NCBI GenBank assembly: GCA_017504265.1
Contig: JAFVRN010000010.1
Span: 1-53,601, forward strand
Source: Alistipes sp.
GTDB taxonomy: Bacteria > Bacteroidota > Bacteroidia > Bacteroidales > Rikenellaceae
Direction: 5' to 3'
DNA length: 53,601 nucleotides
Shown one piece after another: positions 47,070-53,601 of the stretch. Positions within the stretch are counted from its first letter, which is position 1. Each line of letters begins with the position of its first letter. The notes under the pieces were generated by a model. That model made no database searches. It had not been told where the DNA came from and was given only the letters and a program-made list of their open reading frames with translations. The translations under genes and the position numbers were made by a program.

Positions 47070-47086
47070 ACTCTGATTATGCTGTG

Positions 47087-47159
47087 AGCGGCAAACGGGG
47101 CTCGAACCCGCGACCCTCGGCTTGGGAAGCCGATGCTCTACCGACTGAGCTACTGCCGC
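47087..47159 (-). tRNA. tRNA-Gly (anticodon CCC)
   Basis: On the minus strand the sequence folds into a full cloverleaf of 73 nt. The acceptor stem is GCGGCAG with TTGCCGC, with a G-U pair at the last position. The D arm is AGCTCAGTCGGTAGAGC, the anticodon stem CGGC/GCCG with loop TTCCCAA, and the T arm GCGGGTTCGAGCCCCG. The anticodon CCC reads GGG. The 3' CCA is not encoded, since the bases after the discriminator T are CAC. It lies 18 bases before the S41 protease start. Confidence 0.95.
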
Positions 47160-47376
47160 AAAAAGCTGACCACGGTAAATTTCGTGCCAACCATAACAAT
47201 ACAATAACGCCGTGCTGTGTGAGGAATTTTATCCTCACCACGGAACTGATGTGACCAATAGGAGCTATAAGACCGCTACGACCTCTCTGCCGCAACCATC
47301 TCAATGGTCTCAACTGCCCTAAGCATCTCATCGGAACTTGATACTGTTCACAATTCAGAACCCACAAAACCCATTA

Positions 47377-47408
47377 TTGCAGGGCAAAGCCCTGCCACTG
47401 CAAAGCAG
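47377..47408. repeat. 32-bp double-hairpin (REP-like) element, copy A
   Basis: The element has a 7-bp stem GCAGGGC/GCCCTGC with loop AAA, then CA, then a 4-bp stem CTGC/GCAG with loop AAA. Only one base differs from copy C at 53433-53464. It is flanked by 9-bp arrays on both sides. Confidence 0.85.
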
Positions 47409-47567
47409 CGTGGGTCAGATGGGTTAAATGTGTCCAATGGGTTAGATGGGGATTCTTCCACCGCGTTCACAGAACCCACAGAACCCACAGAACCCATAGA
47501 ACCCATAGAACCCACAGAACCCACAGAACCCGCAGAACCCATAGAACCCACTGAACCCACTGAACCC
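47409..47567. repeat. Two inverted arrays of degenerate 9-bp units
   Basis: Five units of the type ATGGGTTAG run from about 47409 to 47453. After about 15 bases come eleven units of the type ACAGAACCC (47469-47567), which is the opposite orientation (its reverse complement is GGGTTCTGT). The two arrays can pair into a long stem. Confidence 0.85.
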
Positions 47568-47599
47568 ACAACACTCGGGATAATCAGCGGTTAAACCCC

Positions 47600-47728
47600 A
47601 ATTTGTTGTCAGAAGGGGTTAGATACAACGCTCGGCGAATTTCGAGGCGATGGGCTGTACTTAGGCGTACTGCCCATTGCTGAGATAATTCGTTAGCGGC
47701 AGTAGATGACCCCTTATCACAACAAATT
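47600..47728. repeat. 129-bp imperfect palindrome next to the DUF3078 gene
   Basis: The ends AATTTGTTGT (47600) and ACAACAAATT (47719-47728) are perfectly inverted. The arms of about 61 nt pair through most of their length, including AGGGGT, CGAA and ATGGGC blocks and a central GTAC/GTAC stem. It abuts and slightly overlaps the stop codon of the DUF3078 gene, which reads into it, so it may terminate that gene or be a miniature mobile element. Confidence 0.75.
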
Positions 47729-48791
47729 ACTTGTTTTTGAAGGTATAGGTAAGACCTACAGATAACATTGACTGTACCTGCAACTTATCTATCTCGGCCT
47801 TGTTGTAGTATAGCTGTACGTAGATCTGCGTAGAGAGATACTTAGAGGCCTTGATATCGATGGTATTCTCCCAACGTAGAGTAGGTACTATATGCTCGTA
47901 GGCCGACTTGTCCTCGGCCTTGGCCATCTGTGACAGGTCGCTAATCCAACCGTAGAATGAGTAGGCTGTCGTGCGGTAACGCAACCAGCCATTCTTACCC
48001 CACGACTTATCGAAGTCAAGCTGAACAGAGAGACCACCCTCATACTTAGATTTACGTCCCTCAGGAACACCGTAGCGGTTTGTGACGGTGCTATCTTCAA
48101 GATAGGTGGCACTCATGGCAATGGGCGCAAGGTTAAGCTTCAACGGGAACTTCTCCGAGGGGATGACATAGGTGAAACCGACAGAGGCATCGAGGTATCC
48201 TGGAGCCATGAAGTTTGACACGCGTGCCTCACCATTATACTTCGAGGTGCGTGCCGCATAGCCCGGAGCAAACTGTGTACGGAACTTGATGTTGGCACCA
48301 TATGTCCAGTTCTTTACCATATCCCACTGGGGAGCAGTGGCAATGGCTATCTCGTCTACATTCTTAAACCATAGACCCTTCTGCTGACCATCACCGATGT
48401 CGGTCTTCATATTGTTGTAGCCGAACTTTGCCGAAGCGGTATTGTTGATGGTAAACTTACCCTTCTTGAAGGTGTGCAGGAAGTTTACATTGGCAAGGAG
48501 CGTGATGGTGTTATCGCCCGATGCCTGCCACGACTTACTGAATGCAGTGAGCGAGCCGTGAAGATTGGCCGAGAAATCTATGGTGTTACGCTCCTGACGT
48601 ATAGCACGACGCTCGGCACGGTAGGCCGCCTCCGAGAAGTACTCTGCATCGACCTCACCACTCTTAACTTCGTTTTCAAACTCCTTCTTTTCGGGGTTAG
48701 ATGCTACCTCGTCGATAGTTACCTGTGCCATTGTCTCTGTCGCAAAGAGCATAGCAACAAATAAACAAATAGAATAGATGTGTTTCATCAT
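47727..48791 (-). CDS. DUF3078-family outer-membrane protein
   Basis: The 354-residue protein has a type I signal peptide (MMKHIYSICLFVAMLFATETMAQ), a short acidic linker and a series of barrel strands alternating aromatic and polar residues (for example ITLLANVNFLHTFKKGKFTINNTASAKFGY), ending in a Phe-containing strand VGLTYTFKNK. The family is a Bacteroidetes barrel of unknown role. I place the start at 48791 (48788 is equally likely); the longer frame reaches back over the predicted promoter. The stop overlaps the palindrome at 47600-47728. Confidence 0.82.
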   Translation of the reverse strand: MMKHIYSICLFVAMLFATETMAQVTIDEVASNPEKKEFENEVKSGEVDAEYFSEAAYRAERRAIRQERNTIDFSANLHGSLTAFSKSWQASGDNTITLLANVNFLHTFKKGKFTINNTASAKFGYNNMKTDIGDGQQKGLWFKNVDEIAIATAPQWDMVKNWTYGANIKFRTQFAPGYAARTSKYNGEARVSNFMAPGYLDASVGFTYVIPSEKFPLKLNLAPIAMSATYLEDSTVTNRYGVPEGRKSKYEGGLSVQLDFDKSWGKNGWLRYRTTAYSFYGWISDLSQMAKAEDKSAYEHIVPTLRWENTIDIKASKYLSTQIYVQLYYNKAEIDKLQVQSMLSVGLTYTFKNK

Positions 48792-48831
48792 GATAGTTTT
48801 TGCTAATAGTGATAACAGATTTATTGATGCA

Positions 48832-48839
48832 CAAATGTA
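48832..48839 (-). promoter_or_regulatory. -7 box (TACATTTG) for the DUF3078 gene
   Basis: CAAATGTA on the plus strand reads TACATTTG on the minus strand, about 40 bases before the start. It lies back to back with the nfo -7 box at 48861-48868, with 21 bases between them. Confidence 0.55.
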
Positions 48840-48860
48840 CACATTTTTCTCAAAATTTCC

Positions 48861-48868
48861 TATCTTTG
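48861..48868 (+). promoter_or_regulatory. -7 box (TATCTTTG) for nfo
   Basis: TATCTTTG fits TAnnTTTG and lies 29 bases before the nfo start at 48898. Its -33 position would fall on the -7 box of the divergent gene. Confidence 0.55.
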
Positions 48869-48897
48869 TACATTATTAAATGATAAATAGTAGGATT

Positions 48898-49743
48898 ATG
48901 AAATATATTGGAGCACACGTAAGTGCATCAGGAGGTATAGAGAATGCTATAAAGAATGCACAAAGCATCGGGGCTACGGCCTTTGCCCTATTTACCAAGA
49001 ACCAACGACAGTGGCTTGCACCACAGCTAAGCGACGAGCAGATAGCCACATTTAAGCGCGCTATGGCCGAGGCCGGATATGCGGCATCTGTGGTACTACC
49101 CCATGACAGTTATCTTATCAACCTCGGACATCCCGATAGCGAGGGCCTCAACAAGTCACGCGAGTCGTTCTTCGAGGAGATGCATCGCTGCGAGTTATTG
49201 GGACTCGATCGTCTAAACTTTCACCCCGGAAGTCATCTCAAACAAATCTCGGCCGAGGAGTCTTTGGAGCGTATCGCCGAGTCTATAAATATGGCATTGG
49301 AGCGCACATCAGGCGTGACGGCTGTCATAGAGAATACTGCCGGACAGGGTTCAAACCTCGGATATAGGTTTGAACATCTGGCATATATCATCGAGCGAGT
49401 TGAGGATAAGAGTCGTGTGGGTGTCTGCCTCGACACGTGCCACTCGTTTGCTGCGGGCTACGACCTGCGTACCAAGGAGGCGTGCGACGCTACGTTCGAG
49501 GCATTCGAGCATATCGTTGGCTTCAAATATCTGAGAGGTATGCACCTCAATGATGCTATGCGCCCCTTGGGCAGTCGCGTCGACCGCCACTCTCCACTGG
49601 GCGAGGGAGAGATCGGCTGGGAGTGCTTCCGATATATTATGCAGGATAGCCGCTTCGACAACATACCGCTTATCTTGGAGACACCCAACGAGGCGCTGTG
49701 GAGCGAGGAGATAGCCAAGCTCAAAGGGTTTGCAAACATCTAA
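48898..49743 (+). CDS. nfo: Endonuclease IV (AP endonuclease)
   Basis: The 281-residue TIM-barrel enzyme cuts DNA at abasic sites in base-excision repair. Family motifs are present: GAHVSASGG at the N-terminus, [62 protein letters not shown] and LETPNE, which supply the three-metal site. I start at ATG 48898 because the family begins [10 protein letters not shown]; six more codons precede it in the open frame. Confidence 0.96.
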
Positions 49744-49754
49744 ACTGTAATATT

Positions 49755-50723
49755 ATGAAGAGGCTTATACTTATCGCTATCTGCTTTGCTGCCATAGGTA
49801 GCATCTCAGCACAGGTGACAATTGAAAAGCCCTACGCTACGGGGGCTGACATATCGTGGTTGCAGTCACAAGAGGATGAGGGCATACGCTTTTCGGACGG
49901 AGGTGTCGAGGGCGATGCCTTGGCTATTTTGCGCGACAACGGCTTTAACTACATTCGTCTGCGCCTATTTGTAGATCCCAAGTCGGAGTTAGGATACTCA
50001 CGTCGGGATGGCTACTGCGACTTGGAACACACCTTGCAGATGGCCAAGCGCATAAAGGAGGCGGGGATGTACTTTCTCCTCGACTTCCACTACTCCGATA
50101 ATTGGGCCGACCCACAGAAGCAGATAATGCCTCAGGCGTGGCAAACATACTCCTATGATGAGGTGTGCTGTGCGGTATACGAACATACGCGTGAGGTGCT
50201 CGAAGCCCTCAATGCGCAACATACCACACCCGACATGGTACAGGTGGGTAACGAGGTGAGCAACGGTATGTTGTGGCCATACGGCTCGGTGCGCCATTCG
50301 TTCGAGGGTCTTTGCGGGCTACTCAAAGAGGGTGTGCGCGCCACAAGGGAGTGCTGCCCCGATGCCGAAATTATGCTACACGTAGCACTTGGAGGACAGG
50401 CCGAGGAGTCGGAGCGTTTCTTTGACGCTATGGCCGAATATGGCGTTGAATACGACATCATCGGTCAGTCGTACTACCCCGAATGGCATGGCACATTGGA
50501 GGAGTTGGAGGCAAATGCCAACGCTTTGGTCGCTAAGTACCAGAAGCCGCTTATCGTAGTGGAATATCGCGATCACTACCTCGCCATCGAGCGTATAGTG
50601 CGCGCTCTCCCCGACAACCTTGGTCGTGGCACTTTCATCTGGGAGGCCACCTCGCCACAGTGGGGTAAGCTCTTCGACAAGGAGGGAGCTGCAACACCCG
50701 CCCTCGACGACTACAATAGATAG
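49755..50723 (+). CDS. GH53 arabinogalactan endo-beta-1,4-galactanase
   Basis: The 322-residue exported enzyme cleaves beta-1,4-galactan in pectin side chains. It has a type I signal peptide (MKRLILIAICFAAIGSISAQ), then the GH53 barrel with GADISWLQSQE, YIRLRLFVDP, FLLDFHYSDNWADP, acid/base Glu167 in VQVGNEVSNGMLWP, and nucleophile Glu270 in PLIVVEY. No SusC/SusD genes or other glycoside hydrolases lie nearby, so it is outside any recognisable polysaccharide-utilisation locus. It follows nfo by 11 bases. Confidence 0.92.
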   Translation: MKRLILIAICFAAIGSISAQVTIEKPYATGADISWLQSQEDEGIRFSDGGVEGDALAILRDNGFNYIRLRLFVDPKSELGYSRRDGYCDLEHTLQMAKRIKEAGMYFLLDFHYSDNWADPQKQIMPQAWQTYSYDEVCCAVYEHTREVLEALNAQHTTPDMVQVGNEVSNGMLWPYGSVRHSFEGLCGLLKEGVRATRECCPDAEIMLHVALGGQAEESERFFDAMAEYGVEYDIIGQSYYPEWHGTLEELEANANALVAKYQKPLIVVEYRDHYLAIERIVRALPDNLGRGTFIWEATSPQWGKLFDKEGAATPALDDYNR

Positions 50724-50735
50724 AGATATTAATAT

Positions 50736-51293
50736 ATGGGAAGTTTCGAGATACTGCTTATAGCTATAGGTGTTGCCATGGATGCCTTCGCCGTATCCAT
50801 CAGCAAGGGTCTTACGCTCAGTCGCATAGAACTGCGACACACGCTACTTGCCGGCATATGGTTTGGCGGATTTCAGTCTCTGATGCCAATCATAGGCTAC
50901 TTCATAGGCATAAGTTTCTCGGAGATTGTAGGCAGCATTGACCATTGGATAGCCTTCGCACTACTGCTTGTCATTGGCCTGAATATGATACGAGAGGCTG
51001 TTTGGGGCGAGGAGGAGAGAGTCAATAACGACTTCGGCTGGCGCACGATGTTACTGATGGCCATAGCGACAAGTATCGATGCCTTAGCTATCGGTATATC
51101 TATGGCATTCATAGGTGCTGATATATGGATGGCAGCAGCCGTAATCGGCGTGGTGACCTTCATACTATCTGCATCGGGCATATATCTCGGACGTGTGGTA
51201 GGCTCACACCTCGGCTCTAAGAGCGGCATTATCGGCGGCATTGTACTTATCGCCATTGGCATAAAAATCCTCGCAGAGCATCTCGGAGCATAA
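50736..51293 (+). CDS. mntP: MntP-family manganese efflux pump
   Basis: The 185-residue inner-membrane protein is predicted to have six transmembrane helices. It carries the duplicated DUF204 signature: AMDAFAVSISKGL near the N-terminus and SIDALAIGISMAF in the second half, where the Asp residues are thought to bind Mn. MntP exports excess manganese. In some Gram-negative bacteria its leader is a manganese riboswitch; the 12-base gap from the galactanase leaves no room for one here. Confidence 0.94.
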   Translation: MGSFEILLIAIGVAMDAFAVSISKGLTLSRIELRHTLLAGIWFGGFQSLMPIIGYFIGISFSEIVGSIDHWIAFALLLVIGLNMIREAVWGEEERVNNDFGWRTMLLMAIATSIDALAIGISMAFIGADIWMAAAVIGVVTFILSASGIYLGRVVGSHLGSKSGIIGGIVLIAIGIKILAEHLGA

Positions 51294-51325
51294 CAAGGGG
51301 ACAATTCACTACATATACATAACGC

Positions 51326-51355
51326 GAGGAGGGTGTTCGTTTGAACACCCTCCTC
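51326..51355. terminator. Bidirectional hairpin terminator between mntP and the POT transporter
   Basis: GAGGAGGGTGTTC (51326-51338) and GAACACCCTCCTC (51343-51355) form a perfect 13-bp stem with a 4-nt loop between convergent genes. Confidence 0.88.
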
Positions 51356-51377
51356 ATTATTTGTGTGGTAGCGGATA

Positions 51378-53177
51378 CTACTTTGTAACGCTCTCTAAAC
51401 GCTTCATCATCACAAACATAAATAGTGCTGACAGTAAGCAGAGTACGATGAATACTGTCCATACAGACCACAATGGAATACCTGCCCAGAGGAAACCGCC
51501 AACCGCAACAAGCATATTACCGATGGCAGTTGCCACAAACCAGCCACCCATCATCAAACCCTTGAGCTTTGGAGGAGCAACCTTCGATACGAATGAGATA
51601 CCCATGGGAGAGAGCAAGAGCTCAGCAAAGGTAAGGATAAGGTAGGTTACAATCAACCAATAGGGCGATGTACGTGTCTCAGGCTTGGTATCAGCCTTGA
51701 TAGCAGCCAACGTAGCCTCTGCCTCGGCAACAGATGCGTCAGACTCACCATCGACTGCCGATGTCTCAGCATTGATGATGGCTACACTTGCATTGTAAAC
51801 ATCGAAGAAGATAGGCTTCGTATTCTTATTAAGCTTACCCATAAAGTCGGTGGCAGGCTTGATTGTAGCAACCACAGCAGCATCCGCCTTCAATGTCTCG
51901 AAATCCTCAGCAGTAGCTGCAACTGCGTGATACTCCTGAGCAAAGGTCTCTGCCTTCTCCACAGCGATGGCGCGCTGCTGCTCGTTAGGGGTATTCAAAC
52001 CGTCAGAACCTACGGCCATAATCACGAAGCCGATAGCCGCAACCAACATACCGTAAGCGATCTTACGTGGTGCAGAAGGCTCCTTACCCTTACGCGCCAA
52101 AGAGCCGAATATTGCCATCGACACAGGAGTCAGGGCAACAACATAGAATGGATTGAACTGCTGGAAGATAGGAGCAGCAACCGTAATCTCTGCGGTAGCC
52201 TCGATGCCCATAGCACGGTATACGAGGAACGCAAGGATTGCCGATGCAAGCACTCCCGAGAAGATCTTAGCCTTAGCACCCTCGCTCTGGAAGATAGAGA
52301 AGGTAGCGTATACCGCTATGATGATAAGGGCCAAGTTCCATACGTTGAACAACATCGTGTCGAAGCCAAAGGCCTGAGTACGTGTGAACTCGTCGGCGAA
52401 GTATGTCAAGGTCAAACCGTTCTGGTGGAAGGCCATCCAGAAGAAGATAACAACGGCAAATACGAGGCAGAGAGCCACGATGCGCTGTTTGGTCTGCTCG
52501 GGAGTGAGGTTATCCTCAACAACAGCAGCCTCGCCCTTCTTCTTGCCACCCTCAACATGACGGAATGTTGAACGGAATACATAGTAGATAAGAATCGAGA
52601 GTATCAACGCTGCACAAGCCACCATAAACGAGAAGTGGTAAGCATCATTAGAGCTGTAACCGAGCGATGTCTCAGCCCAGTGCTTGATGCCCACCGCAGT
52701 GGTAGGAGCAAACAACGAACCTACATTGATAGCCATATAGAAGAGCGAGAAACCTGAGTCACGCTTCGAGGCATACTTAGGATCGTCGTAGAGGTTACCA
52801 ACCATAACCTGCAAGTTACCCTTGAACAGACCTGTACCAACGCTGATAAGCACCAATGCTGCCATCATCGCTATCATAGCAACAGTCTCGCCACCAAGAG
52901 GCACAGAGAGAAGCAGGTAACCGCCAAACATCACCGAGATACCGAGTGTTACCATGCGGCCGAAACCAAACTTATCGGCCATCATACCACCTACAAGGGG
53001 CATAAAGTAAACCAAGCCGAGGAAGGTAGAGTATATTGCACCTGCAACACCTGCCTCCAACCCGAAGTTCTCACGAAGGAAGAGGGCAAATACCGCCAAC
53101 ATCGTGTAGTAGCCAAAGCGCTCACCGGTGTTTGCAAGAGCCAAGGCATAAAGACCTTTAGGATGTCCTTTGAACAT
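51378..53177 (-). CDS. POT/PTR-family peptide transporter
   Basis: The 599-residue inner-membrane protein has about 14 predicted helices and imports di- and tripeptides in this family. Motifs: NTGERFGYY (residues 16-24) where most members have E-x-x-E-R-F-x-Y-Y, so the first Glu is Asn16, and a conserved FYMAINVGSLFAP later. A hydrophilic insertion of about 100 residues (about 415-510, Ala/Glu/Lys-rich) splits the late helices. The codons are those of an abundant protein. It has a promoter at 53241-53270. Confidence 0.92.
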   Translation of the reverse strand: MFKGHPKGLYALALANTGERFGYYTMLAVFALFLRENFGLEAGVAGAIYSTFLGLVYFMPLVGGMMADKFGFGRMVTLGISVMFGGYLLLSVPLGGETVAMIAMMAALVLISVGTGLFKGNLQVMVGNLYDDPKYASKRDSGFSLFYMAINVGSLFAPTTAVGIKHWAETSLGYSSNDAYHFSFMVACAALILSILIYYVFRSTFRHVEGGKKKGEAAVVEDNLTPEQTKQRIVALCLVFAVVIFFWMAFHQNGLTLTYFADEFTRTQAFGFDTMLFNVWNLALIIIAVYATFSIFQSEGAKAKIFSGVLASAILAFLVYRAMGIEATAEITVAAPIFQQFNPFYVVALTPVSMAIFGSLARKGKEPSAPRKIAYGMLVAAIGFVIMAVGSDGLNTPNEQQRAIAVEKAETFAQEYHAVAATAEDFETLKADAAVVATIKPATDFMGKLNKNTKPIFFDVYNASVAIINAETSAVDGESDASVAEAEATLAAIKADTKPETRTSPYWLIVTYLILTFAELLLSPMGISFVSKVAPPKLKGLMMGGWFVATAIGNMLVAVGGFLWAGIPLWSVWTVFIVLCLLSALFMFVMMKRLESVTK

Positions 53178-53240
53178 AGTAAAATAGTTTTAGTTAATAT
53201 ATAAATTATTTGTTGTTACAAAAATAACACAATTCGGGCG

Positions 53241-53270
53241 CGAAGGTACAAAAAAAAATCAAATAACAAA
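53241..53270 (-). promoter_or_regulatory. Promoter of the POT transporter gene (TTTG, 18 bp, TACCTTCG)
   Basis: On the minus strand TTTG (53267-53270) and TACCTTCG (53241-53248) are 18 bp apart, with one mismatch to the -7 consensus. The leader to the start codon would be about 60 nt. Confidence 0.55.
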
Positions 53271-53327
53271 GTGTTATGTATATAATACCAATGCAATAGC
53301 GGCAAATTGCAGGGCGAGGCCTTTGTG

Positions 53328-53360
53328 TTGCAGGGCTTTGCCCTACCCTCTGCTGTGCAG
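53328..53360. repeat. Double-hairpin (REP-like) element, copy B (diverged)
   Basis: GCAGGGC, loop TTT, then GCCCTAC (last two bases unpaired), CCT, and the second hairpin CTGC, loop TGT, GCAG. The stems match copies A and C while loops and spacer differ, which suggests that the fold is what is kept. Confidence 0.75.
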
Positions 53361-53432
53361 AGGAAAGGGTAGTTCACGCCTACGGCGTTAAAGGGTAGTT
53401 GAAGGGTAGTTAAAGGGAGCGTGGATTTTGTG

Positions 53433-53464
53433 TTGCAGGGCGAAGCCCTGCCACTGCAAAGCAG
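53433..53464. repeat. 32-bp double-hairpin (REP-like) element, copy C
   Basis: Identical to copy A at 47377-47408 except for G in place of the first loop A. It is followed directly by the 9-bp array at 53463. Confidence 0.88.
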
Positions 53465-53567
53465 TTTAAGGAGTATAGGGATATTAGGGAGTTTAAGGAA
53501 TATAGAGAGTTTAATGCTATTTAGTTGATTTCCCTAAACTCCTTAAATTCTCTAAATTCTCTAAATT
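53463..53567. repeat. Two inverted arrays of degenerate 9-bp units, second locus
   Basis: Six units of the type AGTTTAAGG or AGTATAGGG (53463-53516) are followed by a 15-base spacer and four units of the type CTCTAAATT or CCCTAAACT (53532-53567) in the opposite orientation. The layout is that of 47409-47567, with different unit sequences. Confidence 0.82.
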
Positions 53568-53601
53568 CTCTTTGGTTTCGAAATCAAAAAAGCCCTCCCA
53601 A

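Follow-up and report, generated by a model that had tools for sequence, protein, structure and literature searches.

A 53,601-nt stretch of DNA from Alistipes sp. (NCBI GenBank assembly GCA_017504265.1, contig JAFVRN010000010.1, positions 1 to 53,601 of the forward strand) was analysed as a whole and is referred to below as the window. It carries two copies of a composite intergenic element, designated as copy A and copy B, and the layout given for both loci in the initial annotation was found to be real: a double hairpin (module D) is followed by forward 9-mers, a spacer and reverse 9-mers. The forward and reverse arrays of copy A are designated as modules F and R, respectively, and the two further modules, U and H, are a group of mini-hairpins with an 11-bp array and a large hairpin, respectively. 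The features of the two loci are as follows.

47355..47374, plus strand: two reverse-type 9-bp units (CAGAACCC/CAAAACCC; family D2) preceding copy A
47379..47408, plus strand: module D of copy A, double hairpin with 3-nt loops, by pattern match
47409..47452, plus strand: module F of copy A, G-rich forward 9-bp array (GGGTNNNAT), by Tandem Repeats Finder (TRF) at 47411-47450 with 4.4 copies
47468..47570, plus strand: module R of copy A, C-rich reverse 9-bp array (GAACCCAYA), by TRF with 11.4 copies and a score of 164
47573..47593, plus strand: linker ACTCGGGATAATCAGCGGTTA after the arrays of copy A, by pattern match
47600..47728, minus strand: module H, hairpin of about 129 nt, by covariation and a covariance model
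53328..53432, plus strand: module U of copy B, mini-hairpins and 11-bp array (GTTAAAGGGTA, 53387-53417)
53435..53464, plus strand: module D of copy B, by pattern match
about 53463..53515, plus strand: forward 9-bp array of family B (TTTARGGAR type), copy B
about 53530..53571, plus strand: reverse 9-bp array of family B (TAAATTCTC type), copy B, close to the contig end
47727..48842, minus strand: gene of 371 amino acids (DUF3078), ending at H
47086..47159, minus strand: tRNA-Gly, on the other side of copy A

The double hairpin of copy A reads GCAGGGC-AAA-GCCCTGC-CA-CTGC-AAA-GCAG, and its pattern gave no match in 100 shuffles; the patterns for D, the linker, U and the arrays gave no match with the reversed-pattern controls. 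Module U is absent from copy A, and the pair of reverse-type units ahead of this copy is probably a remnant. Within R of copy A a G-quadruplex motif lies on the minus strand (47475-47567), and the leftward gene ends in a TAA stop codon that overlaps the outer stem of H. Since the window is the entire contig, copy B runs into the contig end. An open reading frame (ORF) at 47304-47594 reads the R array as EPT/EPI repeats, and a mistaken protein annotation is possible there.

Judged by its recurrence in the genome of the window, the element is probably a dispersed composite intergenic mosaic of an Alistipes species, composed of U, D, F, R, the linker and usually one to three copies of H, with U modules in part of the copies, about four G-rich 9-mers in F, and facing arrays of their own after D in the copies of family B. 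Module D (at most one mismatch, free loops) was found at 42 places in this genome and gave no match under the same settings in 100 other genomes of the genus. Its stems are mismatch-free in 38 of 41 contexts and nearly invariant, and its two 3-nt loops are occupied by 12 and 8 different triplets, respectively. According to the arrays that follow D, 40 contexts were assigned to family A (GGGTTAGAT/GAACCCACA; 33 contexts) or family B (TTTAAGGAG/TAAATTCTC; 5 contexts), with 2 unclassified by the script; an earlier cut comprised 41 contexts, of which 3 were unclassified, and one context was possibly counted double. The unit had been proposed in the initial annotation to be replaced locus by locus. 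The unit letters do differ between the two loci, only because one copy of each of the two families was sampled there, and replacement at each locus within this genome is rejected in view of the two recurring families. Several other points of the proposal stood for this genome: the period and the layout are the same at both loci, which sample a larger set, adjacent arrays accompany other copies of D as well (family A or B in 38 of 40 contexts), and 9-bp arrays are not spread evenly over random intergenic sites, as blindly chosen stretches of its sequence (400 kb) contain 22 arrays scored as intergenic, 21 of which belong to a D-linked block (manual count from lists).

The remaining modules are joined to D in most contexts of family A. 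Module U lies within 140 bp upstream of D in 20 of the 33 family-A contexts, and of the 27 that have at least 600 nt of downstream sequence, 24 contain the linker and 24 contain at least one H core (one core in 15, two in 7 and three in 2). The linker was found at 35 places in the genome (at most 3 mismatches; control 0) and U at 25 places (at most 3 mismatches). Module F is near-constant, with a mean pairwise identity of 0.940 over 29 contexts, and R contains 3-26 units, with a score of 0 in one context and some counts truncated where a contig stops; the majority unit of R also differs between contexts. The five family-B contexts share the same opening text and all end 135-137 bp after D, at contig ends, and the assembly seems to break inside the family-B repeat. 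The repeats thus fall at assembly breaks, and they also give rise to false reading frames such as that at 47304-47594. As to module U, mini-hairpins with different stems are apparently inserted at one phase of the 11-bp array (AGTTC, hairpin, TAAAGGG), as judged by eye at loci L112 and L125 and in the module U of the window (53362-53400).

The folding of the two loci was compared with that of shuffled sequences. The longer stretches 47376-47727 and 53300-53590 gave z values of -6.5 and -3.2 against dinucleotide shuffles, respectively, but they include D, H or U. When the arrays were folded alone, z was -2.4 for copy A (4 of 200 shuffles as good) and -1.35 for copy B (23 of 200 shuffles as good). 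The suggestion that each locus folds into one long stem is thus weakly supported, and as the purpose of the facing arrays such a stem is a weak candidate once the arrays are folded alone.

Facing arrays were then counted across the genus, represented by 101 of a larger number of genomes. For this, 80 named loci (L145-L224; 589.7 kb) of at least 116 stretches found were used, and ORFs were called by length alone, so some arrays were scored as coding. The named loci contain 159 arrays (period 7-12, at least 2.9 copies), 143 of which were scored as intergenic, and these form 65 adjacent pairs, 34 of them with equal period. A match of at least 0.75 was reached in inverted orientation by 14 and in direct orientation by 2 of the 65 adjacent pairs, as compared with 65/2000 and 70/2000 for random pairs; for the 34 pairs of equal period the period-matched mean match was 0.673 (inverted) and 0.496 (direct), with 0.539 for random pairs. 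The G-rich arm comes first in 21 of 27 inverted pairs and the C-rich arm in 2, the other 4 showing neither order. The units of the facing arrays in relatives are 7-11 bp long and differ in sequence from those of the window, and the unit families recur at many loci of a single genome. The claim that the architecture is kept with differing units applies across Alistipes, where facing arrays of equal period recur beside hairpins, and not within the genome of the window. A common hub, CGARGTCGGGTATCA, was matched 32 times in all retrieved sequence (at most one mismatch; L176, L378, L379, L387-L398 and others), 16 times between TTAAGACC/GGTCTTA arms and 7 times between GAGACGAAA/CTCTGTTGT arms; the 9 matches left unclassified comprise, by eye, one of the second kind, three with arms of the first kind on one side and five without arrays.

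At the level of genomes, arrays go with H. In 600 kb from 9 genomes without an H match, 5 intergenic arrays and no adjacent pair were found; in 600 kb from 12 genomes with at least 32 H matches there were 65 intergenic arrays and 33 adjacent pairs, 9 of them inverted (6 with the G-rich and 1 with the C-rich arm first). In the initial annotation a templated or concerted process had been linked to the double hairpin. With its absence from the 100 other genomes of the genus, D cannot be the general driver, and the genome-level partner of the arrays is H. With respect to G-quadruplexes, 27 of the 29 motifs in 453.6 kb of the genome of the window lie inside 9-bp arrays, those of F on one strand and those of R on the other; as an explanation of the period in general, the G-quadruplex agrees with this genome but not with the named loci, where only 19 of 143 intergenic arrays have a motif.

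It could be argued that the arrays are plain satellite expansions, carried along by a mobile repeat of the type of a repetitive extragenic palindrome (REP) or a miniature inverted-repeat transposable element (MITE) and without a role of their own. The minisatellite-like variation in the length of R and the weak folding of the arrays alone are in line with this, and there is a comparable case in Porphyromonas gingivalis, which belongs to the same phylum as Alistipes. BrickBuilt of P. gingivalis, as far as described in the part of the report covered, is a minisatellite within a MITE, with 19 copies in one strain and small inverted-repeat ends (PMC4596501). It likewise is a composite intergenic element with flanking subunits around a tandem array; it differs in its 23-nt unit, and neither facing arrays nor a stop-codon hairpin is mentioned in that part (PMC4596501). 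Against the satellite explanation stands the facing layout itself, which is repeated in distinct unit families with the G-rich arm leading (21 versus 2 of 27 pairs in the named loci and 6 versus 1 of 9 in the H-rich genomes, two counts from partly overlapping stretches and not fully independent), and neutral expansion predicts no such recurrence unless the families share descent. This explanation is rather unlikely in our estimate.

Module H was examined at the ends of genes. It is about 126 nt long and lies at the 3' end of the neighbouring gene; read in the direction of that gene, it commonly overlaps its stop codon or begins a few nt (up to about 3) from it. The 80 named loci contain 122 H cores, every context being distinct. 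An ORF of at least 80 codons ends upstream on the gene strand within 400 nt of 93 cores, within 75 nt of 68 and at 46-49 nt from 52, and the stop codons at the 68 nearest cores are TAA (56), TAG (7) and TGA (5). Further cores lie at about 175 and 300 nt from the gene end and look like second and third tandem hairpins. By orientation of the neighbouring genes, H separates 26 of the 62 convergent gene pairs, 29 of the 275 co-directional ones and 6 of the 59 divergent ones, in loci chosen for H. The covariance model matched H in 66 of the 101 genus genomes (own genome included) with up to 34 matches each, which equals the number of candidates scored; a plain DNA query with one H hairpin matched 14 of 61 genomes, the own genome among them, and every match came from this genus. 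At the gathering score the only Rfam match in the window was a tRNA, and no family matched H there. Large palindromic candidate RNAs of Bacteroidetes, one of them of 132 bp, appear in the part of PMC8040213 covered, and H may already be among these candidates. By itself, H is a large conserved structure at gene ends without an Rfam match in the window.

For the analysis of covariation, a start motif selected 98 of 123 distinct hairpins; removal of near-copies left 48, and 45 were aligned after three more had been dropped. Of the cells in this alignment 98.4% are paired, with divergent forms of H falling outside it and the selection favouring clean pairing. Two-sided changes were found in 22 of 30 pairs, a count that none of 500 shuffles matched, and slid structures pair only 39-46%. 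The non-canonical cells are G-T (5), A-C (10) and others (11) of 1339, and one T-C and one A-C mismatch are invariant in all 45 sequences. As a yardstick, 27 tRNA acceptor stems, placed by best Watson-Crick fit, contain 8 G-T and 1 A-C of 189 cells. Because two-sided changes occur with almost no G-T wobble, the alignment points to H being used or kept as a DNA-level structure; its arms may also be corrected from one another.

For the same hairpins an RNA device was considered, in which transcribed 3'-end hairpins and arrays would stop transcription or translation or protect mRNA ends. The position of H at stop codons and between convergent genes would suit such a device; in the parts of the reports covered, hairpins at most 15 nt from the stop codon stall ribosomes in Escherichia coli (PMC12306157), and transcription is reported for the majority of the G-rich repeats of PMC4692102. 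It is opposed by the lack of an excess of G-T wobble in H, by the absence of any Rfam family besides the tRNA in the window and by the absence of an intrinsic-terminator match in 47160-47800, the only stretch scanned, and we regard it as unlikely. Two narrower candidates were rejected on the same grounds: a known structured RNA for the H/array element, as there is no Rfam match besides the tRNA in the window and the G-U tolerance of covarying helices is not seen; and an intrinsic terminator (G+C-rich hairpin and T run), with 0 sites in 47160-47800 (copy A only) as compared with 0.6 on average in shuffles.

Orthologous sites were compared between related species. At the 30 best-matching ends of aspS (101 genomes matched), H was found at 7 by script, with 4 further H-like starts by eye, and arrays of several different units were found at 6. 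Between the genomes G082 and G096, the coding part of aspS has an identity of 92.7% over 357 nt, the two H hairpins are alike except for two bases in the apical loop, and the facing TTTAGGGAG-type arrays can be aligned unit for unit, with one single-base gap. G082 contains in addition a block with other arrays that G096 lacks. From 13 orthologous pieces of two related species, three were dropped (two without a true orthologue in G082 and one with the repeat inside a gene). At the ten remaining sites, according to our own reading, the arrays are the same at 1, a shared family is accompanied by extra arrays in one species at 6, and no facing-array family is common at 3. H is present in one species and absent from the other at some orthologous sites, and the gain or loss of whole modules is thus seen between related species. 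Where the arms were folded at five sites of two related species, 33 pairs were unchanged, 1 had a one-sided and 2 had a two-sided change (few pairs).

The arms might also be written from one another, in that fold-back synthesis or template switching at the hairpin renews the units at each locus while the inverted layout and the hub persist. Such a templated process between the arms had been suggested in the initial annotation and is not favoured here. Adjacent arrays of equal period do match better inverted than random pairs do (0.673 versus 0.539; direct 0.496), the hub lies between the arms in each of two unit families (16 and 7 of 32 matches), H shows two-sided changes with few intermediates, and the stems of D are constant beside loops of 12 and 8 triplets. 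When units were permuted within the arms, a small in-register signal was obtained as well, with a mean z of 0.65 and a combined z of 3.7 for 33 pairs of relatives and a mean z of 0.75 and a combined z of 2.5 for 11 pairs of this genome; however, single pairs with p<=0.05 numbered only 1/33 and 0/11, respectively. F moreover is constant while R varies in this genome, the two mismatches of H are kept in 45/45 sequences and would be erased by general copying, and the same unit families occur at many loci per genome, which fits an exchange of ready-made modules. Copying between the arms is accordingly held to be improbable. A similarly low probability is given to the broader proposal that the architecture is heritable and the letters are not, such that a hub or hairpin with facing arrays would persist while units are exchanged or rewritten, and DNA-level fold-back would also keep H strictly Watson-Crick.

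According to the explanation that we prefer, the mosaic would spread as one unit in this species, with the facing layout inherited together with the element, and R would grow and shrink by ordinary slippage. H may be maintained as a DNA structure, single-stranded or cruciform, and possibly serves as a boundary at gene ends. In many copies, G-quadruplexes might arise in F and R on opposite strands, or the two arrays might pair weakly. The species would differ in their arrays mainly because whole array modules of a common repertoire are gained, lost or exchanged, with slow drift of the units in addition.

Several results weigh against this explanation. The combined in-register signal (z 3.7 and 2.5) exceeds what inheritance and slippage alone predict. 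No transposase is tied to the element: PF01797 did not occur in any of 37 genus genomes (no search was aimed at other transposases), and the 30 aspS ends revealed no clean empty site with a target duplication. The arrays folded alone are little better than shuffles at either copy (z -2.4 and -1.35). In the named loci a G-quadruplex motif is present in only 19 of the 143 intergenic arrays, and the F array of copy A also lacks one. Concerning the link with H, a recognised H core is found at a distance of at most 600 bp from only 15 of the 65 arrays of the H-rich genomes, and the stretches examined contain no array in 3 of these 12 genomes. The genomes without H may be one clade, in which case the genome-level link may reflect descent; of these 9 genomes, 4 were taken directly from the model results and 5 by elimination, with no core seen in the stretches of those five.

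The nearest precedent, to the extent of the part covered, is found in the convergent GGGAATC repeats of Xanthomonas, whose order is taken to be that seen in Alistipes. There, convergent GGGAATC heptamers are reported for Xanthomonas and GGGGA(T/C)T heptamers for Nostoc, with two arrays close and convergent in X. campestris pv. campestris (70 cases; 186 patterns in all) and X. axonopodis pv. citri (75 cases; 183 patterns), and no cause for the facing arrays is given as far as that text was covered (PMC4692102). The Alistipes arrays are likewise intergenic, made of short units and facing each other with converging G-rich arms. They differ from the arrays of that partial account in that the units are 9 bp (7-11 bp in relatives) rather than GGGAATC or GGGGAYT heptamers, several unit families coexist within the genus, and the arrays belong as modules to a mosaic that also contains the hairpins D and H. 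G-quadruplex motifs are present in this Alistipes genome, and most arrays of relatives are without one. The TAACTGA and other heptamer repeats of Beggiatoaceae, Cyanobacteria and some Bacteroidetes resemble the present arrays in being intergenic, short-unit, patchily distributed and, in some regions, mixed; in the part of the report covered they are direct repeats but for one, lie mostly just upstream of start codons in the main genome, and no mosaic with stop-codon hairpins is mentioned (PMC4679880). Among top-ranked titles and the openings of abstracts, with most subscription journals lying outside the search, no description of these Alistipes repeats was found.

BOX elements of Streptococcus pneumoniae are modular, with a middle module of variable copy number and pairing ends. 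By description, the present element resembles them in these respects. REP elements and REP doublets forming hairpins (REPINs) constitute systems defined by a Y1 (HUH) transposase of the REP-associated tyrosine transposase (RAYT) type. In the part of PMC12306157 covered, REP elements, REPINs and bacterial interspersed mosaic elements (BIMEs) are likewise many-copy extragenic palindromes, part of them near stop codons and in mosaics with other motifs. High-copy extragenic palindromes are found here too (H in 66 of 101 genus genomes, D at 42 places), and H differs in its length of about 126 nt and its internal loops. A search for PF01797 (Y1 transposase) was negative in 37 same-genus genomes, which are incomplete ones, and positive in 19 of 24 genomes from other families in the same order, and a RAYT/REPIN origin is ruled against by this absence in the genus sample. 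With several unit families, a common hub, whole-array differences between species and a covarying companion hairpin, the origin and the function of facing arrays become testable in Alistipes.

Elsewhere in the window, a 130-bp tandem duplication lies at 1683-1933; text that seems similar by eye lies in L394 and, behind aspS, in L273 and L282, and the duplication is perhaps another dispersed Alistipes repeat.

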